The position numbers and the translations under genes were made by a program. A DNA stretch of 64,000 nucleotides from Bacteroidales bacterium (lineage in GTDB: Bacteria; Bacteroidota; Bacteroidia; Bacteroidales; GCA-2748055): NCBI GenBank assembly GCA_029210725.1, contig JARGFM010000007.1, positions 62,001 to 126,000 of the forward strand. Direction: 5' to 3'. Shown here piece after piece: positions 13,251 through 34,917 of the stretch (position 1 is its first letter; the number at the start of each line of letters is the position of its first letter). The notes under the pieces were generated by a model. That model saw only the letters and a program-made list of their open reading frames with translations, was not told the DNA's origin and did not search any database.

Positions 13251-13256
13251 GTGGAG

Positions 13257-13331
13257 TGGGGACTGCTGGATTCGAACCAGCGACCCCCTGCTTGTAAGGC
13301 AGGTGCTCTGAACCAGCTGAGCTAAGCCCCC
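13257..13331 (-). tRNA. tRNA-Val (anticodon TAC)
   Basis: Read on the minus strand, a full cloverleaf is present: the acceptor stem GGGGGCT pairs with AGTCCCC (one G-T pair), the D arm is GCTC...GAGC, the anticodon stem CCTGC/GCAGG holds the loop CTTACAA with anticodon TAC, and the T arm has GGTTCGAATCC. CCA is not encoded. It reads the Val codon GTA. Confidence 0.93.
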
Positions 13332-13427
13332 TTTAGCGGCTGCAAATATAGATGATCTCGTTGAATTCCCAAAAAAATGAATTGCTTTTTTTGTATATTA
13401 CAGCTGTTTAAGCCAAAACCTGTTGCT

Positions 13428-15143
13428 ATGTCCGAACTTTGCCTGACTCACAGAGGGATACGAGTGTTCCTCCTCTCCGTTTTTGTACTGCTGACTGCTG
13501 CTTCCTGTCAAAATCACGGCCCTGAGAGGGGCGATGGACCTGAAGTTCTGGTGGAGATCGACTCCAGCTACCAGGCCATGAATCCCATGGACCTGCATTT
13601 CGATTCCCTGGAACAGGTGATGATTGATTCCGGGATGGCAGAACTGATCGATGCCTACCGGGCCATCAGGGCCTATGACCTTCCCAACACCACCCCGCCG
13701 GCCATCCAGTTTAATCCCCTGCCCTACGGCTTTCAGATTCCCCGGCCAACACCAAAGCTGACCTGGGACATTCCTGAAGGAGTGACCCGGCCCACCTGGG
13801 AAGCCGACCTGGCTTTCATGTCCATCCCCGAGCTGGCTTCTTTGCTGCGTTCCGGTGAAATATCATGCCTGGCCCTTACCGAGTTTTTCCTGAACCGGCT
13901 GAGGAAATTCGACCCGCAACTGCACTGTGTGCTTACACTTACAGAGGAATACGCCATTGAACAGGCAAAAAAGATGGATGCTGAACTGGCGGCAGGAAAA
14001 GACCGGGGGATCCTTCACGGCATCCCTTATGGTGCCAAGGACCTGTTTTCTTTCCCGGGATATCCCACCACCTGGGGAGCCGGGGCCTACAAGGAGCAAG
14101 TGCTGGATGAAACGGCAGGGATCATTCAGAAACTGGAAGAAGCCGGAGCTATCCTGGTGGCAAAAACCACCCTGGGAGCCCTGGCCATGGGGGATGTCTG
14201 GTTTGCCGACACCACCCGCAATCCCTGGAATCTGGAAGAGGGCTCCAGTGGTTCCTCTGCAGGTTCGGCTTCTGCAACGGCAGCCGGACTGCTGCCCTTT
14301 GCCATAGGAACGGAAACCTGGGGCTCCATTGTCTCACCTTCCACGCGCTGCGGCACCACCGGATTAAGGCCTACCTACGGCAGGGTGACCCGTTCCGGGG
14401 CCATGGCCCTGAGCTGGAGTATGGATAAGGTGGGGCCTGTCTGCCGGAGAGCTACCGACTGTGCCATTGTGTTTGATGCCATCCGGGGATTGGACCCGGC
14501 CGATAAGACCCTGCTGGATGCCGGGTTTACCTACCCGGGAAAGGTGGATCTCTCTGCTCTCAGGATCGGCTACTTCGAACGAGCTTTTGAGGAGGAATAC
14601 GGGGTTTCCCGGTTTGATAAACAGACCCTCCGGGTGCTGAAAAAACTGGGGGCCGAGCTGATCCCGGTGGAACTGGAAAACGAGGAACTCCCCTATTATG
14701 CCCTGTCCATCATCCTGGAAGCCGAAGCTGCAGCCGCATTTGATGAGCTTACCCGATCCAACCGGGATACCCTGCTGGTGAGGCAGCACCGCTATGCCTG
14801 GCCCAATTTGTTCCGGACTGCCAGGTATATTCCTGCGGTTGAATACATACAGGCCAACCGGATCAGGCACGATCTGATCGAAGACTACCACAGGCGCCTG
14901 AAGGAGTTCGATGTGATAGTCACACCCTCCTTTCAGGGAGGGAACCAGCTGCTGGCCACCAACCTTACCGGTCACCCGGTGGTGGTCCTGCCCAATGGAT
15001 TTAAAGATTCAGGTTCCCCCACCAGTATCTCCTTCCTGGGAAATCTGTTTGATGAGGGAACCATCCTTGCTGTGGCAGCTGCCTACCAGGAGGCCACCGG
15101 CTTCCATCTGAAACGGCCCGGGACCTTCAACAGGGCAGATTAG
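13428..15143 (+). CDS. Amidase-signature lipoprotein
   Basis: About 571 residues from the ATG at 13428, which gives a signal peptide ending VLLTAASC, a lipobox. The amidase-signature Ser-cisSer-Lys triad is visible: Lys in GIPYGAKDLFSFPG, the Gly/Ser-rich EGSSGSSAGSASATAAG with the cis-Ser, and the nucleophile Ser in IGTETWGSIVSPS. The family hydrolyses amides such as aryl amides, amidated peptides or Glu/Asp amides. Because it is exported and not next to gatB or gatC, it is not the tRNA amidotransferase GatA. The substrate is unknown. Its 3' end overlaps the tail of the opposing DoxX gene by 4 bp. Confidence 0.88.
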   Translation: MSELCLTHRGIRVFLLSVFVLLTAASCQNHGPERGDGPEVLVEIDSSYQAMNPMDLHFDSLEQVMIDSGMAELIDAYRAIRAYDLPNTTPPAIQFNPLPYGFQIPRPTPKLTWDIPEGVTRPTWEADLAFMSIPELASLLRSGEISCLALTEFFLNRLRKFDPQLHCVLTLTEEYAIEQAKKMDAELAAGKDRGILHGIPYGAKDLFSFPGYPTTWGAGAYKEQVLDETAGIIQKLEEAGAILVAKTTLGALAMGDVWFADTTRNPWNLEEGSSGSSAGSASATAAGLLPFAIGTETWGSIVSPSTRCGTTGLRPTYGRVTRSGAMALSWSMDKVGPVCRRATDCAIVFDAIRGLDPADKTLLDAGFTYPGKVDLSALRIGYFERAFEEEYGVSRFDKQTLRVLKKLGAELIPVELENEELPYYALSIILEAEAAAAFDELTRSNRDTLLVRQHRYAWPNLFRTARYIPAVEYIQANRIRHDLIEDYHRRLKEFDVIVTPSFQGGNQLLATNLTGHPVVVLPNGFKDSGSPTSISFLGNLFDEGTILAVAAAYQEATGFHLKRPGTFNRAD

Positions 15144-15628
15144 CCTTCAGTGACCATCTCTGGCTTAGCTTCTTGCTGTACAGGATGCTTCTGAGCCTGC
15201 TGTTTCCGTTCCAGAAGGAAATCCAGGCTGAACTTCCCTGATCCGTAAGCCACCAGGGCCAATAACATCAGGAAATAATACAAGGGGATCTCAAAGCCGT
15301 TATCGCCGGCAGCAAAGCCGTTGGAGATATGGGTGGTAAAAACCGCCACTACCATCACAAACATCAGGGGCAGTGCAATGATCCTGGTCCCAAGTCCCAG
15401 GGTCAGCAACACGATTCCCAGTACTTCGGTGGCCATGGCAAGAAAGGCACTGACCATAGGGAAAGGGTAGCTCATGCTTTCAAACCATTGGGCTACTCCT
15501 GAAAGGTTCTTTACTTTCATCATGGCCGGACTGAAAAAGCCGATGACCAGGATCAGGCGGAATAAAAGCAGCTGTAAATCGCGCAGCTTCTCCGCTCTTT
15601 CTACAAATTTTCTGTACAAAGTTCTCAT
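15140..15628 (-). CDS. DoxX-family membrane protein of the bufferin operon (HvfX-like)
   Basis: A protein of 162 residues with four hydrophobic helices (around LLLFRLILVIGFF, FLAMATEVLGIVLLTL, IIALPLMFVMVVAVF and YYFLMLLALVAYG) and a short charged cytoplasmic tail. It fits the DoxX family. DoxX proteins next to DUF692/DUF2063 genes (called HvfX or TQO-like) are standing members of copper-binding RiPP operons; their exact role is unclear and may be electron transfer or membrane anchoring. It is the last gene of the minus-strand operon, 18 bp after the DUF2063 gene. Confidence 0.85.
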   Translation of the reverse strand: MRTLYRKFVERAEKLRDLQLLLFRLILVIGFFSPAMMKVKNLSGVAQWFESMSYPFPMVSAFLAMATEVLGIVLLTLGLGTRIIALPLMFVMVVAVFTTHISNGFAAGDNGFEIPLYYFLMLLALVAYGSGKFSLDFLLERKQQAQKHPVQQEAKPEMVTEG

Positions 15629-15646
15629 TTTATGTATGTTAATTGA

Positions 15647-16402
15647 TTAATTCCGAATAAATCCAAGAATCAGTTTACGCTTTAGCAGATCCTTGAGAAA
15701 GACCTCCAGTGCTTCGTCGAGGCATCTGCTGCTCTCAATACCTGAAACCAGGGAAATCTCATTTTTAATGAAGTTCAGGGGCACTTTCTCCTCATCCAGA
15801 CGTGTAATAAGGTATACATTCAGGGCAGAAAGGGCCAGGAACTGTACATGGCCCGTATCTGGCATGCGGTACAGAAGGGCATAATACTCCCCTTCCATAT
15901 CAAGGGCCTCCGCTGCCGGATGTGTATGTACCGGGTACCGGAGTTTCAGGATTTCATACTCGGGATTAAAAGCCAGGGGGTCCCTGAACAGGTCCCCCTC
16001 TTCCGTAAAATCCGGACAGGGCCTGTCCGGCATGGTATGAATCTCAATCTCCATCCACTCAAAATAGAGCAGATCATCCAGAAAAGGCAGGCCTGTCTTT
16101 TTCCCGGTCTCCCTGGCCGCATGGTACTGGCAGAACTCAAGGGGCAGCTTCCAAACCTGCGGGGTTTGAGGAATTCCTTCCGCGAAAAAATCCTGAACCA
16201 GCAGATTCCACGGCTCCTCACCCAGGGCGGCCATGGTGATCGGGAAAGCCGTACGGAGTGTGTCAGACACCACATTGGAAACAAGGCGGCGGTAATGATG
16301 AATCCTGCCGGGGGTAAGACCTGGCATTTTTGCTTCCACACCGGTCCTGCAGTATTCCCCCAGCTGCTCCTGTATCTGTATGGTCTCTTTACGCAGTGGC
16401 AT
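15647..16402 (-). CDS. hvfC: DUF2063 RiPP maturation partner (HvfC/BufC-like)
   Basis: A protein of 251 residues. The N-terminal half contains the DUF2063 pattern GRIHHYRRLVSNVVSDTLRT followed by AFPITMAALG and QDFF, and the C-terminal half has the HPAAEALDMEGEYYALLYRM segment common in HvfC-type proteins. Such proteins pair with DUF692 oxidases and bring the precursor peptide to them, resembling a RiPP recognition element. The start overlaps the end of the DUF692 gene by 14 bp, indicating coupled translation. The family is reliable from both sequence and context; direct precursor binding is inferred from studied homologues. Confidence 0.85.
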   Translation of the reverse strand: MPLRKETIQIQEQLGEYCRTGVEAKMPGLTPGRIHHYRRLVSNVVSDTLRTAFPITMAALGEEPWNLLVQDFFAEGIPQTPQVWKLPLEFCQYHAARETGKKTGLPFLDDLLYFEWMEIEIHTMPDRPCPDFTEEGDLFRDPLAFNPEYEILKLRYPVHTHPAAEALDMEGEYYALLYRMPDTGHVQFLALSALNVYLITRLDEEKVPLNFIKNEISLVSGIESSRCLDEALEVFLKDLLKRKLILGFIRN

Positions 16403-17231
16403 GTTTCACCTCCCAGTGCCTGTTTAATATGGTCTTAATCCGGATGAGCTCGCCCTTAATCTGCTCCAGATCCTGAAAATTAAAATCCCTCTCCAGCAGG
16501 ACAGGTACCGGATCCATCTTTTGGATAGTCCACTCGAAAAGCTCATAAACCGGGTCGATGATGGGCTGGCCATGCGTGTCGATAATCAGGTCGGGTTCCA
16601 CCTGTTCATGGCCGGCCATATGGATATATGCGACCCGGTCCAGGGGGATGCCCCCGATATACTCCCGGGGATCGTAACGATGATTAAATGCATTGACAAA
16701 CACATTGTTTACATCCAGCAGAAGCTTGCAACCGGCCCGTTCCACAATTTCGTTTACAAATTCGATTTCTGACATCTCGGCAGCTACCGGGGTGTAGTAG
16801 GATACATTCTCAATGGCCAGAGGCCTTTCCAGGTAATCCTGTACCCTGCGGATCCGGTCGACCACATGGTCGATGGCATCCCTGCGAAAAGGGATGGGCA
16901 GCAGGTCATAAAGGTGGGCATTCCGGCTTTTGGTATAGCTCAGATGTTCCGAATAGATACTTACCCGGTTATCATTCAGGAAGGCTTTCAGTTCACGGAT
17001 AAACCTCCAGTCCAGTTCCTCCGGACTGCCCAGTGACAGGGAGAGGCCATGACAGGTAATGGGAAAACTTTCCACGGCCCGGTCCAGGACCCGTTTCCAG
17101 GCGCCTCCCATTCCCATCCAGTTCTCCGGCGCAAACTCCAGAAAATCCGGAGTAAGGATCCTGCTGTCCAGAATCTCCTCAGCAATATCCCTTCGGAGTC
17201 CCAATCCTACTTTAACTCTCTTGCCTTCCAT
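16389..17231 (-). CDS. hvfB: DUF692 multinuclear non-heme iron oxidase (MNIO), HvfB/BufB-like
   Basis: A TIM-barrel protein of 280 residues of the DUF692/MNIO family. Candidate iron ligands are all visible in order: the Glu of FAPENW, the His of TCHGLSLSLG, the His of SEHLSYT, the Glu of AIENVSYY, the Asp/Asn of LLLDVNNVFVNAFNH, the His of YIHMAGH, the Asp-x-His of IIDTHGQP and the Glu of LLERDFN. Studied relatives use O2 and two or three iron atoms to convert Cys residues of a precursor peptide into thiooxazole or oxazolone/thioamide groups that bind copper. The start at 17231 gives MEGKRVKVGLGLR, the typical family opening. It lies 125 bp after the precursor gene and overlaps the DUF2063 gene. 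Confidence 0.92.
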   Translation of the reverse strand: MEGKRVKVGLGLRRDIAEEILDSRILTPDFLEFAPENWMGMGGAWKRVLDRAVESFPITCHGLSLSLGSPEELDWRFIRELKAFLNDNRVSIYSEHLSYTKSRNAHLYDLLPIPFRRDAIDHVVDRIRRVQDYLERPLAIENVSYYTPVAAEMSEIEFVNEIVERAGCKLLLDVNNVFVNAFNHRYDPREYIGGIPLDRVAYIHMAGHEQVEPDLIIDTHGQPIIDPVYELFEWTIQKMDPVPVLLERDFNFQDLEQIKGELIRIKTILNRHWEVKHATA

Positions 17232-17250
17232 CTTCTGATATTTTTAAAGA

Positions 17251-17275
17251 GGAACCCCGGAAAATCCGGGGTTCC
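17251..17275 (-). terminator. Hairpin between RiPP precursor and modifying-enzyme genes
   Basis: A perfect 11-bp stem (ggaaccccgga / tccggggttcc) with a 3-nt loop. Read on the minus strand it is followed by TCTTT, a weak T-run. It lies between the precursor stop and the DUF692 start, where a leaky terminator or RNA-stabilising hairpin would give much more precursor than enzyme. Confidence 0.6.
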
Positions 17276-17356
17276 TTCCGTTCCGGCTCAACCAAATTGA
17301 TAACAAGCTACTCTGATCAATCCACTAACCCTGCCGGTCCGAACTCCTGGTTCCAA

Positions 17357-17737
17357 TTATTTTTTTTCACTTTTCTTTTTAGTTGACTTCTTCTCACCTT
17401 CTCCACATTTACCTTCTCCGCATTTGGCCTCGGTGCTTTTTGATTCAGTGGCTTTTTCCGAGGTGGACTCACTCTTTTTAGCGTCCGCTTTCTTATCGCC
17501 TTCGCCGCACTTTCCTTCGCCGCATTTCAGTTCTCCGAACTTTACCGCAGAGGCTTCCAATGGATTTACCTGCATGCTGTTCATATCGATCAGGTGACTG
17601 CGGACCTGTGCACCGGAACCCAGGTGATTATAGGCCAGGATATCAGCACCAAAGGAAGGTGAAGCCGCCAGGCCGGTGGTCAATAAAGCTCCCGCAAGCA
17701 TAGTAGCGGATTTTAAGATCTTTTTGTCTGTTTTCAT
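17357..17737 (-). CDS. hvfA: Secreted Cys-rich RiPP precursor (bufferin/HvfA-like)
   Basis: A 126-residue peptide. Residues 1-30 form a Sec signal (MKTDKKILKS..., cleavage near SPSFGA). A neutral segment, LAYNHLGSGAQVRSHLID, follows and may be the enzyme recognition part. The rest is low-complexity Lys/Ser/Glu sequence holding two identical cassettes CGEGKCGEG (Cys 72, 77 and Cys 106, 111), each preceded by Lys. EGKCG repeats are the known modification sites of HvfA/bufferin peptides. I infer that the four Cys are oxidatively modified by the DUF692 enzyme and that the exported product binds copper. The gene comes first after the regulators and has its own candidate ECF promoter. Confidence 0.88.
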   Translation of the reverse strand: MKTDKKILKSATMLAGALLTTGLAASPSFGADILAYNHLGSGAQVRSHLIDMNSMQVNPLEASAVKFGELKCGEGKCGEGDKKADAKKSESTSEKATESKSTEAKCGEGKCGEGEKKSTKKKSEKK

Positions 17738-17777
17738 GATATTACGAATTTTGATTAATATTGAATCTGGGAGTTTT

Positions 17778-17803
17778 GACGAGGGCGGGAAGATATCCTT
17801 ACA
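17778..17803 (-). promoter_or_regulatory. Candidate ECF sigma promoter for the RiPP operon
   Basis: Minus-strand TGTAAGG (17797-17803), then 15 nt, then CGTC (17778-17781), about 40 bp upstream of the precursor start. A CGTC-type -10 with a spacing of 15-17 nt is typical of ECF sigma promoters. The same two blocks at the same spacing occur upstream of porU. Confidence 0.55.
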
Positions 17804-17834
17804 AGAATTCTGAAGGATGCCGGAATTTTAACAC

Positions 17835-18143
17835 CTATTTAGCATTTAACCTGCGGCCTATCTCCCGGCCGATTCTGGAGCCGGCTTCCGCCGAGAGATG
17901 GTGGGTGCACGACTGCTCGCTGCAATGATCACGGTATACTTTCATGCTGAGATTTAGCTCACCAATCTGATGGGCATACTTCCTGCAGAGATGACAGGTC
18001 AGCAGGTGCATGTTTAACTGCCACCATTGCTTTAGGCTCAGGCGCCGGTCTTCGCGTAAGGAGATCAGAAAACTCGACTGGTCGCAGGCGATCATCCGCT
18101 TACTCATATATACCATTATTCTGTAGCCAGGTCCCTTTTTCAT
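17835..18143 (-). CDS. Small ZAS-type anti-sigma factor
   Basis: A protein of 102 residues without membrane helices. It contains MHLLTCHLCRKY, the H-x3-C-x2-C zinc motif of ZAS anti-sigma domains (zf-HC2 type), and a further HCSEQSCTHH cluster near residues 74-83 that could bind a metal. Its start lies one base after the stop of the ECF sigma gene, the normal order for a sigma/anti-sigma pair. As a soluble ZAS protein with extra Cys and His it could sense metal or redox state and release the sigma factor. The pairing is well supported by context; the signal is inference. Confidence 0.75.
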   Translation of the reverse strand: MKKGPGYRIMVYMSKRMIACDQSSFLISLREDRRLSLKQWWQLNMHLLTCHLCRKYAHQIGELNLSMKVYRDHCSEQSCTHHLSAEAGSRIGREIGRRLNAK

Positions 18144-18144
18144 A

Positions 18145-18735
18145 TCACTTCAACCAGTTTTTTTCCAGACAATCTCTCATTTTCAGCCTCGCCCGGTGGA
18201 GCATAACCCATAAGTTAGACGGAGTGATCCCAAGCTCCTTACAGATGCTGTCCGACTCCTCCTCATCGATCATCTTCATGCTGAAAGCAAGAGCCAGTTG
18301 CGGTTGTAAATGCTCCATGCAGAGCCTGATGTATTCCATAAGTTCGGCCTGCTCCAGCTCTCCTTCCGGTAAGAGCGAGTGCGAATGGGGGCCCCTGCCC
18401 TCCAGCCAGTGTCCCCTGAAAGGTTCTTCACTGCGGTAGAAGTCCCCGTCAAAAACGGTTTGTTCATGCTCCCCGAAAGAGCTCTCCCTGGAAGAATACT
18501 TTTTTCTGTAGGTATCAACGATCTTCCTTCTGAGAATGGAGGTAAGCCAGGTTCTTTCGGTACTCTCCCCCCTGAACTGCTCCTGCGCTTTCAGTCCTGC
18601 CAGAAAAGTCTCCTGAACCAGATCCTCTGCTTTACCGTCATCATTGACCCTGACAATGGCATAGTTATACAGATAGTCCCCGTATTTTTCAAGCCAGCGA
18701 TTTGGATCCAGTTTATGATCTTTCGCCTTGGACAT
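18145..18735 (-). CDS. ECF-type RNA polymerase sigma factor
   Basis: A protein of 196 residues. Region 2 is seen at YLYNYAIVRVNDDGKAEDLV followed by QETFLAGLKA, then the region 2.4-like TWLTSILRRKIVDTYRKK. After an acidic linker, region 4 carries an HTH around ESDSICKELGITPSNLWVML followed by HRARLKMRDCL. Size and two-domain plan are those of ECF factors. It heads the minus-strand operon with an anti-sigma partner and the RiPP genes. A partly matching copy of the TGTAAGG element (at about 18760-18766 on the minus strand) lies just upstream of its own start, so weak autoregulation is possible. Confidence 0.88.
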   Translation of the reverse strand: MSKAKDHKLDPNRWLEKYGDYLYNYAIVRVNDDGKAEDLVQETFLAGLKAQEQFRGESTERTWLTSILRRKIVDTYRKKYSSRESSFGEHEQTVFDGDFYRSEEPFRGHWLEGRGPHSHSLLPEGELEQAELMEYIRLCMEHLQPQLALAFSMKMIDEEESDSICKELGITPSNLWVMLHRARLKMRDCLEKNWLK

Positions 18736-18800
18736 GCATGATACCTTAGAAAGAAGCCCTTACAAGATAGAAAAATATACCTTGATTCATGCGGATTGTG

Positions 18801-18808
18801 TATTTTTG
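18801..18808 (+). promoter_or_regulatory. Bacteroidota -7 element for yedF
   Basis: TATTTTTG fits TAnnTTTG, with a TTG block about 17 bp upstream. It ends only 4 bp before the ATG at 18813, so the transcript would be leaderless or nearly so. Confidence 0.45.
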
Positions 18809-18812
18809 CGGA

Positions 18813-19415
18813 ATGAAAATACTAGATACCACAGGACTGCTTTGCCCACAACCCCTCATTTTGCTTAAGGAGGCACTGATGGAACTGGAAGAGGGTGAAC
18901 AGCTGCAGGTGGAGACCGACAACAAAACCTCGCTGAAAAACCTGCTCAGCTATCTGAAGGACCAGGGTGTGGAGCCTGAAGTAAGCACGAAAGGTAAAGT
19001 ACATACCCTGGTTGCTGTAAAACCGGAAGAGGATCTGACCGCCTCCGATCCCGCCCTCTACTGCAGCACAGAACGGCCCGCCGCTTATGTGGTATGCATT
19101 AAAGGCGAGCTGATGGGTGAGGGCGATCCCGAACTGGGGAGGCTGCTGATGGAGACCTTTGTAAATAACCTGAAATTGCAGGAGAAACTACCCTCCCATG
19201 TGGTACTTTATAACTCGGGAGTAAAACTGGCCATGAAACAATCGCCCGTGTGCAGCTCCCTGACCGAACTGGAGGAACTGGGGACCCGCATTATGCTGTG
19301 CGGCACCTGCATCGACCACTATGGCTTGCAATATGATATCGCCGTGGGAATGATCTCCAACATGGTGGTCATTACCGAAACTCTGGCTTCGGCCGGACAT
19401 GTCCTTACTCCCTGA
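18813..19415 (+). CDS. yedF: YedF family selenium-metabolism protein
   Basis: About 200 residues from the ATG at 18813. Residues 1-70 form a TusA-like domain with the LLCPQPLILLKEAL motif (Cys11), used for sulfur or selenium relay in this superfamily. The C-terminal half is a DsrE-like domain ending in MLCGTCIDHYGLQYDI, a CxxC-type site. This two-domain layout defines YedF, which commonly sits next to selD in bacteria that use selenium. The earlier in-frame ATG at 18789 would add residues absent from the family. selD begins 10 bp after the stop. Confidence 0.9.
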   Translation: MKILDTTGLLCPQPLILLKEALMELEEGEQLQVETDNKTSLKNLLSYLKDQGVEPEVSTKGKVHTLVAVKPEEDLTASDPALYCSTERPAAYVVCIKGELMGEGDPELGRLLMETFVNNLKLQEKLPSHVVLYNSGVKLAMKQSPVCSSLTELEELGTRIMLCGTCIDHYGLQYDIAVGMISNMVVITETLASAGHVLTP

Positions 19416-19425
19416 GTCCGGGTAA

Positions 19426-20472
19426 ATGAATAAGAAATTCGATCTGTTGTCCACTATCGAGTATGGTGGTTGCTCCGCAAAACTGCCGGCCGGCCTGCTG
19501 TCGCAGGTCTTACGTGAACTGCCGCTTGCTGCAGATCCCCGGCTGCTGGTGGATGTGGATACCCACGACGATGCCGGGGTCTACCAGATCAACGGGGAGA
19601 CAGCCCTGATCTTTACGACGGATTTCTTTCCGCCCATCTGTTCGGACGGATATGAATTCGGGGAGATTGCAGCAGCCAATTCCCTTTCGGATGTATATGC
19701 CATGGGCGGAACACCTCTTATAGCACTGAACCTGATGATGTTTTCATCGGAAAAAATTCCTCTGGAGGTATTTGGAGAAATTCTTAAAGGCGGGAATGAC
19801 AAGGTGAGAGAAGCGGGAGCCCTGATCGTGGGCGGACATACCATCGACGACCACCCTCCCAAGTATGGGCTGGCAGTAGTGGGAACAGTGCATCCCGACC
19901 GTCTGATCACCAATGCCGGGGCCCGGCCCAACGATCTGCTTGTGCTGACAAAATCCATTGGGACCGGGGCGCTGGTTTCCGGGGAGAAGAACGGGCTTTG
20001 CAGTACAGGCGATTACAGGCGGGCCCTGAAGCAGATGAAACATCTGAACAGGGAGGGAGCAAGCCTGGCTGTGAAATACGGGATACGAAGCATGACTGAT
20101 ATCACCGGATTTGGACTGGCAGGACATGCCCTGAAGATGGCAGAAGCCAGCAAAGTGAGCTTCCGGATAAAAAGCACTCAAATTCCCCTGCTCCCGGGAG
20201 CTTACCAGGTATATGAAAAGGGCAGCATACCGGGAGCAACTTTCAGGAACCTGGAATTTACCGGACAGCAGCTCCATTGCCTGCGCGGGGTGGATTATAA
20301 TCTGAAGATGCTGGTTCACGATGCGCAGACTTCGGGCGGACTTCTTATGTCGGTGAATCCCGATCATGCCACAGCCCTTGTCGGGGAGTTAAAGCAGATC
20401 GACCCGGGGCTTAAGGCTGCAGTGATCGGTGAAGTTTTACCCGAAAGTCCCCGCCGCATTTACCTGGAATAA
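19426..20472 (+). CDS. selD: Selenide, water dikinase
   Basis: A 348-residue SelD, which makes selenophosphate from selenide and ATP for selenocysteine or selenouridine. The N-terminal catalytic loop reads EYGGCSAKLP, with Cys16 as the catalytic residue and Lys19; some SelD proteins have selenocysteine at this position, but here the codon is TGC. The metal/ATP-binding Asp motifs (DVDTHDDAGVYQI, FTTDFFPPI, VGGHTIDDHPPKYGLAVVGT) and the late SGGLLMSVNP motif are intact. It is co-directional with yedF. No selA, selB or ybbB is present in the window, so the end product cannot be told from here. Confidence 0.95.
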   Translation: MNKKFDLLSTIEYGGCSAKLPAGLLSQVLRELPLAADPRLLVDVDTHDDAGVYQINGETALIFTTDFFPPICSDGYEFGEIAAANSLSDVYAMGGTPLIALNLMMFSSEKIPLEVFGEILKGGNDKVREAGALIVGGHTIDDHPPKYGLAVVGTVHPDRLITNAGARPNDLLVLTKSIGTGALVSGEKNGLCSTGDYRRALKQMKHLNREGASLAVKYGIRSMTDITGFGLAGHALKMAEASKVSFRIKSTQIPLLPGAYQVYEKGSIPGATFRNLEFTGQQLHCLRGVDYNLKMLVHDAQTSGGLLMSVNPDHATALVGELKQIDPGLKAAVIGEVLPESPRRIYLE

Positions 20473-20500
20473 TTCAAAGCGTTTTTTATACCTTTAAAGC

Positions 20501-21172
20501 ATGAACAGGCACCGTTCCTACAGTATGATATACAGGCTGCAGCGTATTATCCTGCTGGTTTTTTATACCACCACCTGCATGGCCCTCGCCATACTCCTGG
20601 CCCTTCTGGTCATGAAACTTTTGCCCGGTCAGCCTTTCGCCCTGGTGATCACCCTGCTGATCTACATCATCCTGGTGATCATCGCAGGATCTATGATCCA
20701 TGTGATCAGCTACATACCTTTTAATCTTTCCACCGCATTCGATCCCATAAAAAACGACATAGCCTCAGGCCGCATAGCCAGTTTGGAGGAGCTCGCAGAA
20801 CGCATTACCCGCTTTACCGTGGAGTTTTACAATTTCTCCTTTCTCGACATCTCTCATGCCTTTCTGGAGACCGAAAAGAGTGGTGTGATCGGATTTGAGA
20901 ATAACAACCAGGTGGATAAAGTGCTCAGAGACCAGGGGATACTTCATCAAAGCAAAGTGCTGGAGGAAATCAGCCCGGCTGGCAAAATTTCCCTTCCGGA
21001 ACGGGACTACCATCTCTATATCCTGCCCCTCCGGATGGGAGAAACCTGGCTGGGATATATGGCCTTACTCTCCGAAAAACGAATCAGCCGCTTTTTCCTG
21101 CGCTTTCTGGAGGAATACGAAGAGAACTTTCTTGACGATCAGATTTTGCATCTGGTCAAATTAAAAAAATAG
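20501..21172 (+). CDS. Two-helix membrane protein of unknown function
   Basis: A protein of 223 residues that I do not recognise. Two hydrophobic helices near the N-terminus (LLVFYTTTCMALAILLALLV and LVITLLIYIILVIIAGSMI) are followed by about 140 soluble residues. The soluble part has alternating strands and helices and ends DQILHLVKLKK; it might be a small sensor-like domain, but no motif supports that. It follows selD by 28 bp and precedes the cation exchanger gene by 9 bp, so it is likely in one transcript with both. Confidence 0.6.
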   Translation: MNRHRSYSMIYRLQRIILLVFYTTTCMALAILLALLVMKLLPGQPFALVITLLIYIILVIIAGSMIHVISYIPFNLSTAFDPIKNDIASGRIASLEELAERITRFTVEFYNFSFLDISHAFLETEKSGVIGFENNNQVDKVLRDQGILHQSKVLEEISPAGKISLPERDYHLYILPLRMGETWLGYMALLSEKRISRFFLRFLEEYEENFLDDQILHLVKLKK

Positions 21173-21181
21173 CCGGGAAAG

Positions 21182-22330
21182 ATGCTCTTATCACTCCTGT
21201 ATATCTCCATCAGCTGTCTCATCATCTGGCGCTCATCAAACGGCTTTGAGCTTGCTTCTGACTTTCTGGGCAGAAAAATGCCCCTGGGCATCAAAGGAGC
21301 TACCATCAATGCCGTAGCCAGTTCTATGCCCGAGTTTCTGACCACCATTTTCTTCCTGTTCTACCTGCGGGATGCGGAAGGATTTTCGGGCGGACTTGGC
21401 GTCAGTTCGGGAAGTGCCCTGTTTAACCTTCTGATTATTCCTGCCCTGGTGGTACTGATGCTTTTCAGTGGCGAAAAGCGGAATAGAATTGAATTAAACA
21501 AGAAAGTGCTCCTTCGTGAAGGGAGTGTACTTCTTATCACACAACTCATCTTTGTCAGTTTTCTCTTCACCGGGGAGCTGCTGGGCAGGCACGGACTGGT
21601 CCTGGTCCTGGTCTACCTGTTGTACCTGGGAATGCTCTATGTCATATACAGAAAGCGCCCGAAGACCACGCAAAATTATGTAAGGCCCCTCTCAGCCCCG
21701 AAAAAGAACATCCTGCGCACCCTGCTTTCCCTGGATATGATCGCGCTGGTGTTAAATGGCAGGAGGATCACTCCCCTGAGGGCATGGATGCTGCTGGGAG
21801 TCAGCACGCTGGTAATGACCTTCGGGACCTGGCTGCTGGTCTATGGAACCGATCTGTTCGGCGAAGCCACCCACATCCCGCTGATCTTCGTGGCCGTGGT
21901 CCTTTCGGCGGCAGCCACATCGGTGCCCGACACCATTATTTCCGTCAAAGATGCCCGGAAGGGAAATTACGATGATGCAGTGAGCAATGCCCTGGGCAGT
22001 AATATTTTCGATATTGCGTTTGCACTGGGCTTTCCCCTGCTTCTGTACAATTTGATCTACTCGGAAAGTATAACACTTAAACAGGATCTTCTAGCCTTTA
22101 CCCAGGAAGTATGGGTCTTTCTGCTCCTCGCCACCTTTCTGGCCCTGGCCATTATGCTGACCGGAAAAAGTTTTACCAGGGTAAAAGCTTACTTCCTGCT
22201 GGGCATCTACCTGATATTCCTTTTATTTGTAGGGACCCAGGTAAATGAAGAATTGCGCCAGGGCATCGGGGGGCCCGTTGGTCAGTTTCTGAAGAATGTG
22301 GCCAACTGGATCGGACAAGTGCTCAACTAG
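21182..22330 (+). CDS. Sodium/calcium-exchanger family transporter
   Basis: A membrane protein of 382 residues of the CaCA superfamily. Two inverted repeats are visible: alpha-1 GATINAVASSMPEFLTTIFF near residue 39 and alpha-2 VVLSAAATSVPDTIISVKDA near residue 238, the latter followed by SNALGSNIFDIAFALG. About ten hydrophobic helices flank them. Such proteins exchange Na+ or H+ for Ca2+ or other cations. Alpha-1 has ASSMPEF where many members have GTSLPEL, so ion choice may differ. The gene is closely linked to the two-helix membrane protein upstream; its tail overlaps the opposing Nudix gene by 4 bp. Confidence 0.85.
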   Translation: MLLSLLYISISCLIIWRSSNGFELASDFLGRKMPLGIKGATINAVASSMPEFLTTIFFLFYLRDAEGFSGGLGVSSGSALFNLLIIPALVVLMLFSGEKRNRIELNKKVLLREGSVLLITQLIFVSFLFTGELLGRHGLVLVLVYLLYLGMLYVIYRKRPKTTQNYVRPLSAPKKNILRTLLSLDMIALVLNGRRITPLRAWMLLGVSTLVMTFGTWLLVYGTDLFGEATHIPLIFVAVVLSAAATSVPDTIISVKDARKGNYDDAVSNALGSNIFDIAFALGFPLLLYNLIYSESITLKQDLLAFTQEVWVFLLLATFLALAIMLTGKSFTRVKAYFLLGIYLIFLLFVGTQVNEELRQGIGGPVGQFLKNVANWIGQVLN

Positions 22331-34891: not shown

Positions 34892-34917
34892 TGTAAGGTT
34901 CATATACTATCAACGTC
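34892..34917 (+). promoter_or_regulatory. Candidate ECF sigma promoter upstream of porU
   Basis: TGTAAGG (34892-34898), a 15-nt spacer, then CGTC (34914-34917), about 48 bp before the porU ATG. It matches the element upstream of the RiPP precursor gene in both blocks and spacing, and both copies are preceded by CT or TCT. Confidence 0.5.

Follow-up and report, generated by a model that had tools for sequence, protein, structure and literature searches.

Here we describe a six-gene operon on the minus strand (18735-15140) of a 64,000-nucleotide stretch of Bacteroidales DNA, hereafter the window, which encodes in order an ECF sigma factor, a ZAS anti-sigma protein, a precursor peptide, an MNIO, a DUF2063 protein and a DoxX protein. 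We read it, with a probability of roughly 0.8, as a stress-inducible copper-buffering RiPP operon controlled by its ECF/ZAS pair through two ECF promoters. It is very probable that a family of ECF genes across Bacteroidota and Ignavibacteria carries its own sigma-dependent promoter in the region 4.2 codons, placed to transcribe the adjoining anti-sigma gene; if so, the domain with which the sigma factor reads promoters would be encoded by the same DNA stretch that serves as one of its promoters. Gene content, gene order, both promoter motifs and the DNA-level constraint are established by sequence statistics. The features are as follows.

18145..18735, minus strand: ECF sigma factor gene (196 aa; Sigma70_r2 and r4_2 matches; region 4.2 CKELGITPSNLW)
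18215..18243, minus strand: proposed intragenic ECF-dependent promoter for the ZAS gene (TGTAAGG-N15-CGTCTAA; codons C165-N174 of the ECF gene)
17835..18143, minus strand: ZAS anti-sigma gene (102 aa; soluble zinc type; NF052368, anti-sigma, 51, cut-off 50)
17775..17803, minus strand: proposed ECF-dependent precursor-operon promoter (TGTAAGG-N15-CGTCAAA)
17357..17737, minus strand: RiPP precursor gene (HvfA-like, secreted; 126 aa; 4 Cys)
17591..17635, minus strand: conserved precursor motif AYNHLGSGAQVRSHL, between the signal peptide and the Cys core
17504..17527, minus strand: first core KCGEGKCG (Cys 72 and 77; NF050137 match)
17402..17425, minus strand: second core KCGEGKCG (Cys 106 and 111; NF050137 match)
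16389..17231, minus strand: MNIO gene (HvfB/DUF692; 280 aa; PF05114 E 4e-100; NF003818, HvfB, 373.5 bits, cut-off 360)
15647..16402, minus strand: DUF2063 / RRE partner gene (HvfC, PME1; 251 aa; PF09836 and NGO1945_C above gathering)
15140..15628, minus strand: DoxX membrane protein gene (HvfX; 162 aa; NF050144, HvfX, 117 bits, cut-off 80)

Coordinates and family matches agree with the gene content given in an earlier note on this DNA, as well as with the one-base gap between the ECF and ZAS genes, the 14-bp overlap of the MNIO and DUF2063 genes and the 18-bp gap between the DUF2063 and DoxX genes that it described. The DUF692 metal ligands that it had recognized are likewise present: the MNIO aligns with PDB 3bww (E 2e-64), and nine window residues (H61, H96, E141, D173, N175, H204, D218, H220 and E247) fall on identical residues of that structure. 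N175, D218 and H220 correspond, by motif and not by structure, to N175, D242 and H244 of HvfB, which are essential (PMC13419390). The nearest NCBIfam model of the ECF protein, TIGR02943, scores under its cut-off; the DUF2063 protein matches NF050145 (HvfC) over its full length at 113.5 bits, under the NCBIfam equivalog cut-off of 142, and PDB 3dee (NGO1945) with E 1e-6. At the distal end, the DoxX gene shares its final 4 bases with the end of an amidase gene that runs towards it (13377-15143).

All four Cys of the precursor, whose signal peptide was judged by eye, sit in KCG. The protein scores 22.2 against NF050137 (KCGExKCG_twice, cut-off 19.5) and far under the cut-off of the HvfA equivalog NF050188. 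The pattern Y-x-x-[LM]-G-[STN]-[GA]-x-x-[VLI]-R-x-x-[LI] was found in 73 of 74 precursors, and the AYNHLGSGAQVRSHL segment is a candidate recognition site for the HvfC-like protein. Assignment to bufferin proper (Buf1/DUF2282 or Buf2) was rejected, as there is no DUF2282 match, the Cys number 4 and not 6 or 12, and the BufB model NF050167 stays under its cut-off. What had been called a bufferin/HvfABCX operon with its own ECF/ZAS pair is HvfABCX with ECF/ZAS, but from the Buf_EGKCG/oxazolin 'captophorin' branch instead of the bufferins. Such an HvfABCX/oxazolin operon probably makes a secreted copper-binding peptide. EGKCG-type modification is now assigned as a 5-thiooxazole on Cys (PMC13097082, PMC13419390), and the characterised products bind Cu (PMC13097082); by homology with these, the window's peptide would carry 5-thiooxazoles on its Cys and bind copper.

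The ZAS protein carries the HxxxCxxC motif (MHLLTCHLC) with an upstream Cys and no membrane helix, and its gene adjoins that of the ECF factor, all of which are features of a soluble ZAS. The motif and the upstream Cys, together with the lack of any hydrophobic 17-residue stretch, recur in 55 of 55 homologues. Inhibition of the partner sigma factor has been shown for the homologue MseR (PMC2893595), and by analogy with such characterised proteins the window's ZAS would inhibit its own partner and may sense a metal or redox state. Its extra C-terminal CxxxxCxH is found mainly in the window's own family; a general role of these Cys/His as a metal sensor was rejected, 41 of the 55 ZAS proteins having no C-terminal Cys at all.

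The nature of the trigger is where an alternative fares best. Oxidative or thiol stress (HOCl, electrophiles) could be the signal instead of copper, copper binding by the peptide being secondary, and we give this a little less than an even chance. HOCl induces the hvf operon through H. influenzae RpoE2 (PMC7907618), the ZAS motif fits that of the redox-type proteins RsrA and MseR, and related ECF-ZAS loci adjoin, by eye, peroxiredoxin-like, thioredoxin-domain and DoxX-like genes. However, it is Cu that the characterised EGKCG products bind, and copper itself attacks thiols, so that copper and thiol stress are hard to separate. In one study, oxidants elicited no response from sigma-E of Neisseria (PMC2893595). 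Copper as signal or ligand is not proven by homology and operon structure.

The promoter proposed within the ECF gene lies in the codons of region 4.2. In the window its -35 element begins precisely 100 nt ahead of the start codon of ZAS; across loci the distance is about 100 nt. Under a strict definition the motif is present in 47 of 56 ECF genes, whereas 300 synonymous-codon shuffles give a mean of 1.2 and a maximum of 5. Codon choice at the site is nearly fixed, with TGT in 55/55 (expected 28), AAG in 54/54 (expected 16), NCG in 52/53 (expected 13), though the residue varies between S, P, A and T, and TC[TA] in 49/53 (expected 18). P-values count related genes as independent, and a fairer control is the ranking of third positions, where the synonymous positions of the site are the top three of 184 in conservation (1.0, 1.0 and 0.98; median 0.45), in genes with a median protein identity of 44%. 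Relatives lacking the site mostly have other residues where it encodes Lys, so that the site seems to fix Lys there. An intragenic site occurs in 67 genes versus 3 with a site upstream of ECF, and none has both.

These codons might instead be kept for mRNA structure or for translation pausing near the sigma-ZAS junction, with a lone upstream promoter serving the operon; in Neisseria the genes are transcribed as one polycistronic unit, for which a single promoter has been mapped, and the 1-nt gap between the ECF and ZAS genes makes translational coupling plausible. We consider this improbable, since the constraint falls on precisely the bases of the -35 and -10 elements, at the promoter's own spacing, while the 15 bases and the codons between them vary freely, the same two blocks occur intergenically before the precursor, and the codon constraint is lost in ECF genes that carry the site upstream.

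The second promoter of our reading precedes the precursor gene. A site is found there in 40 of 55 loci with an ECF gene (0.06 expected from dinucleotide shuffles) versus 1 of 17 loci without one (Fisher 9e-7), and 39 of the 40 share a TGTAAG-to-CG spacing of 16 nt. The motif across loci, TGTAAGG-N15-CGwCtAA, was counted over the 55 loci (1.03 Mb, both strands): 51 copies lie within the ECF gene, 38 precede the precursor and a single one is found anywhere else. The window's two sites, TGTAAGG-N15-CGTC(T/A)AA, share bases and spacing with the neisserial sigma-E consensus GTMAGBWTT-N12/13-CGTCTAAH (PMC2893595), although here the constraint beyond GTAAG is weaker. A scan of the window's genome gave 11 pattern matches versus 16 for the reversed control, so that no site beyond the two in the operon exceeds chance, and a CGACT scan for a wider regulon in the genus gave few matches. 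Autoregulation of ECF through an upstream copy of the motif was rejected for the genus, most members sharing AATTTTCTATCTTGT there instead; in the window, TTGTAAGGG (from 18765) stands upstream of ECF, but it lacks a CGTC element and is not conserved. Neither promoter, including the one within the ECF gene, had been noticed in the earlier note.

We propose that stress induces the six genes as one operon, whose product is a periplasmic or secreted copper-buffering RiPP. In the resting state the ECF sigma factor would be held by the soluble ZAS protein; a thiol or metal signal at the Zn/Cys site of the latter would free it, and the freed sigma factor would fire two near-identical promoters. The one immediately preceding the precursor gene would provide the output, and the one in the region 4.2 codons, ~100 nt before the ZAS start, a negative feedback that replenishes the inhibitor. 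As the ECF gene has no such promoter upstream, ECF supply would be decoupled from the response. The MNIO and its DUF2063 partner would turn all four Cys in the pair of KCGEGKCG cores into 5-thiooxazoles, and DoxX (HvfX) may help at the membrane. The identity of the signal is conjectural, as is the view that in this organism the sigma factor uses both promoters. The intragenic promoter would represent an unusually clean DNA-level constraint on a coding sequence and predicts negative feedback via the inhibitor; with the promoter pair defined, the regulon can be sought by sequence.

The gene-order comparison with relatives that had been suggested shows that the window is not a single case: ECF-ZAS-precursor-MNIO-DUF2063 stand in one invariant order in 55 of 80 related loci of Bacteroidota and Ignavibacteria, a sample biased by its selection for closest similarity to the window's MNIO. 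Of 396 genomes sampled evenly across the phylum, just 7 have an HvfB above the cut-off. The same six genes recur in the same order within the genus as well as in distantly related Bacteroidota, which excludes chance assembly, and the cultured members Chitinophaga arvensicola and Prolixibacter bellariivorans open the system to experiment. CopA above cut-off is absent from the window's genome and from 13 of 13 MNIO-bearing members of the genus, and present in 3 of 5 members without MNIO (Fisher 0.012). That the peptide stands in for the Cu(I) ATPase was nevertheless rejected as a general rule, since 23 of 39 other genomes with homologous loci carry CopA.

Methanobactin, from a distant MNIO, acquires copper, and other MNIO peptides are termed metallophores; the peptide could thus serve acquisition, as a chalkophore, instead of protection. 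This is unlikely in our view, as no recurrent importer or receptor gene was found in the operon among the loci compared and bufferin-type peptides protect against copper excess (PMC12452194). Less likely still is a decaying or silent operon in the window's lineage: the precursor is broken and the MNIO shortened in one member of the genus (G002), and DoxX is missing from some relatives, including some in the genus, but in the window's copy each of the six genes is intact, as are the two promoter sites.

The closest precedent for the intragenic promoter is the sigH-rshA locus of Corynebacterium glutamicum, which belongs to a different phylum, has no RiPP operon and presumably differs from the window in its promoter sequence. 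There, sigH is transcribed from housekeeping promoters, and its coding region contains a sigma-dependent promoter from which the anti-sigma gene alone is expressed (PMC3489674). Fontiphorin, gonophorin and other captophorins combine an EGKCG precursor, an MNIO and PME1, as in the window, and their 5-thiooxazole product binds Cu (PMC13097082). Captophorins have been described from Pseudomonadota, Bacteroidota members and their promoters being absent from the published accounts examined. The sigF-NrsF bufferin (Buf1) system of Caulobacter is reportedly also an ECF-controlled MNIO/DUF2063/DoxX operon, with a DUF2282 precursor and NrsF in contrast to the window's EGKCG precursor and soluble ZAS. 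Sigma and NrsF genes occur in Buf1 clusters (PMC12452194).

In H. influenzae, hvfABCX with RpoE2/HrsE (oxazolin) offers HvfA-B-C-X, an ECF factor and a small ZAS like the window, and its expression depends on RpoE2 (PMC7907618, PMC13419390); unlike in the window, the ECF/ZAS pair lies at a separate locus near msrAB, and the precursor has three AEGKCGEGKCG motifs as opposed to two KCGEGKCG cores preceded by a conserved segment. The Neisseria rpoE (sigma-E)/MseR operon NMB2140-NMB2145 (NGO1948-1943) has the same six components and the same promoter consensus (PMC2893595), but its order is DoxX-precursor-MNIO-DUF2063-ECF-ZAS, with a single autoregulated promoter ahead of all six genes and no site inside the ECF gene. 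The proposed extension of an ECF-controlled version to Bacteroidota is thus upheld for the phylum and not for ECF/ZAS control as such (PMC2893595, PMC7907618): such EGKCG operons have precedents in Neisseria and, divided between two loci, in H. influenzae, so that novelty is confined to the phylum and the wiring. The ECF/ZAS copper-peptide (oxazolin/captophorin) operon thereby passes from a few Proteobacteria to a conserved system of Bacteroidota and Ignavibacteria.

The operon comprises six tightly packed minus-strand genes spanning 18735-15140, whose families were assigned by Pfam and NCBIfam and whose coordinates bear out the intergenic gaps and 14-bp overlap described in the earlier note:

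18735-18145, minus strand: ECF sigma factor
18243-18215, minus strand: intragenic motif, codons C165-N174, region 4.2 of the ECF gene
18143-17835, minus strand: ZAS anti-sigma factor; anti-sigma family match (NCBIfam) just over cut-off
17803-17775, minus strand: motif copy before the precursor
17737-17357, minus strand: precursor; KCGExKCG_twice over cut-off
17231-16389, minus strand: MNIO; HvfB over cut-off
16402-15647, minus strand: DUF2063 protein; HvfC match spans the full length but falls short of the equivalog cut-off; Pfam DUF2063 exceeds gathering
15628-15140, minus strand: DoxX; HvfX over cut-off

All four precursor cysteines lie within two KCGEGKCG cores. Among solved structures, the MNIO is closest to 3bww, and the DUF2063 protein to 3dee, which is gonococcal NGO1945. 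Between the signal peptide (judged by eye) and the Cys core, 73 of 74 precursors share Y-x-x-[LM]-G-[STN]-[GA]-x-x-[VLI]-R-x-x-[LI], which the DUF2063/RRE protein may recognise; no such segment can be seen in the three proteobacterial precursors looked at. The ZAS of the window's family carries an additional C-terminal CxxxxCxH (17835-17925, minus strand), missing from most other Bacteroidota homologues. The divergent conserved neighbours at 18789-22330, a TusA-DsrE fusion (YedF-like) and a SelD-like protein followed by a 223-aa protein and a CaX-like antiporter, suggest selenium metabolism; a relative, G005, retains the operon and lacks the fusion and the SelD-like protein. A tRNA-Val (tac) at 13256-13331 (minus strand) adjoins an amidase gene.

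The comparison of gene order proposed in the earlier note reveals a recurrent arrangement. ECF-ZAS-precursor-MNIO-DUF2063 occurs in exactly that order at 55 of 80 named genome loci (those matching the MNIO best, a sample biased toward the window's MNIO), including Bacteroidales, Chitinophaga and Ignavibacteria, with DoxX present in 39 of the 55. Within the genus, DoxX is sometimes absent and the order holds wherever the contig covers the locus, the one exception being G002 with its broken precursor. In this genus member (L028:4880-5900 and L147) the operon is decaying: its precursor has lost the signal peptide and contains an in-frame stop, the MNIO misses an internal stretch and DoxX is absent, with the proposed precursor promoter intact; an assembly fault may instead be responsible. 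L062:2801-6303 (genome G046) is rearranged, with the ECF gene first, then MNIO-DUF2063-DoxX and ZAS last, and no intragenic motif was found in its ECF gene. The system is broad but patchy, since HvfB exceeds its cut-off in only 7 of 396 genomes drawn evenly from the phylum.

Upstream of the precursor gene stands a proposed promoter, TGTAAGG-N15-CGwCtAA. It occurs at 40 of the 55 loci with a linked ECF gene, where shuffles, whose P-values treat loci as unrelated, predict 0.06, and at 1 of 17 that lack such a gene (Fisher 9e-7). Its spacing is fixed in 39 of the 40, and several remaining ECF-linked loci show close variants by eye, e.g. CGTATA.

The second copy, a proposed intragenic promoter, lies inside the ECF gene, at a median of 100 nt upstream of the ZAS start. 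The strict motif occurs in 47 of 56 operon-linked ECF genes; with synonymous codons shuffled within each gene it appears in 1.2 genes on average and in 5 at most. A better control than such P-values is the ranking of third positions within the same genes: although the proteins share a median of only 44% pairwise identity, the three most conserved of 184 belong to the motif. Codon choice there is nearly fixed (TGT 55/55, AAG 54/54, TC[TA] 49/53), NCG being kept in 52 of 53 though the encoded residue varies (Ser, Pro, Ala, Thr), and codons between the motif blocks vary freely. In the 1.03 Mb surrounding the 55 loci, 51 occurrences of the motif lie within the ECF gene and 38 in the stretch from there to the precursor core; the single remaining one is at the decayed L147, whose precursor gene is unrecognised. 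A strict scan of the 18 genus genomes places the site in about half, which are most of the operon-carrying ones. Further matches, at window 34892-34917 (plus strand), L164 and L166, do not exceed chance expectation in number and precede a 484-aa protein without Pfam match, a thioredoxin-like protein and a small protein.

With a loosened pattern, 70 of 84 ECF genes on a tree built without the motif columns carry the intragenic site; none of the three proteobacterial genes has it. Related ECF-ZAS pairs that stand apart from any RiPP operon often carry it too, so the site characterises this ECF family in the phylum. Such pairs with the motif (L216-L223, L227, L230, L233) neighbour, by eye, O-methyltransferase, CcdA-thioredoxin fusion and YHS/DM13/DoxX-like genes. 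In three related ECF genes the site lies upstream of ECF and the codon constraint is lost; no ECF gene with both intragenic and upstream sites was found. At these loci (L224, L226, L234) the motif recurs after ZAS, preceding peroxiredoxin-like genes in two.

We propose that the sigma factor would act on two targets, driving the effector operon and the gene of its inhibitor, and would not drive its own gene. Release from ZAS would raise the peptide machinery and refill the inhibitor, ending the response. The product, by analogy with characterised homologues (PMC13097082, PMC13419390), would contain 5-thiooxazole and bind copper; copper and a thiol oxidant are candidate signals. No copper P-type ATPase (TIGR01511) match exists in the window's genome (98.6% complete), in which RND heavy-metal pumps are present, and none exceeds the cut-off in the 13 MNIO-positive genus members; as a wider trend this pairing fails outside the genus.

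The same regulatory logic is known from Corynebacterium sigH-rshA, with a promoter inside sigH (PMC3489674); for the present family, a literature search covering few subscription journals found no earlier description of an intragenic promoter. Acinetobacter and Moraxella plasmids carry precursor-MNIO-DUF2063-ECF, then a ZAS-like ORF. On the small Moraxella plasmid NZ_CP135142 that ORF, 3' of the ECF gene, is unannotated, and the captophorin operon has an IS4 transposase inserted between MNIO and DUF2063 (L215:2975-4147). In H. influenzae, RpoE2 and a ZAS partner control unlinked hvf genes (PMC7907618). Neisseria NMB2140-2145 (compared as L213) is transcribed as one unit under sigma-E, with the ZAS protein MseR as inhibitor (PMC2893595); it has the same six components in a different order, and its sigma-E consensus (GTMAGBWTT, 12-13 nt, CGTCTAAH) matches the precursor-upstream motif in sequence and spacing. 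ECF control is thus not a first case here, whereas the Bacteroidota arrangement is not described in the Neisseria and H. influenzae papers.
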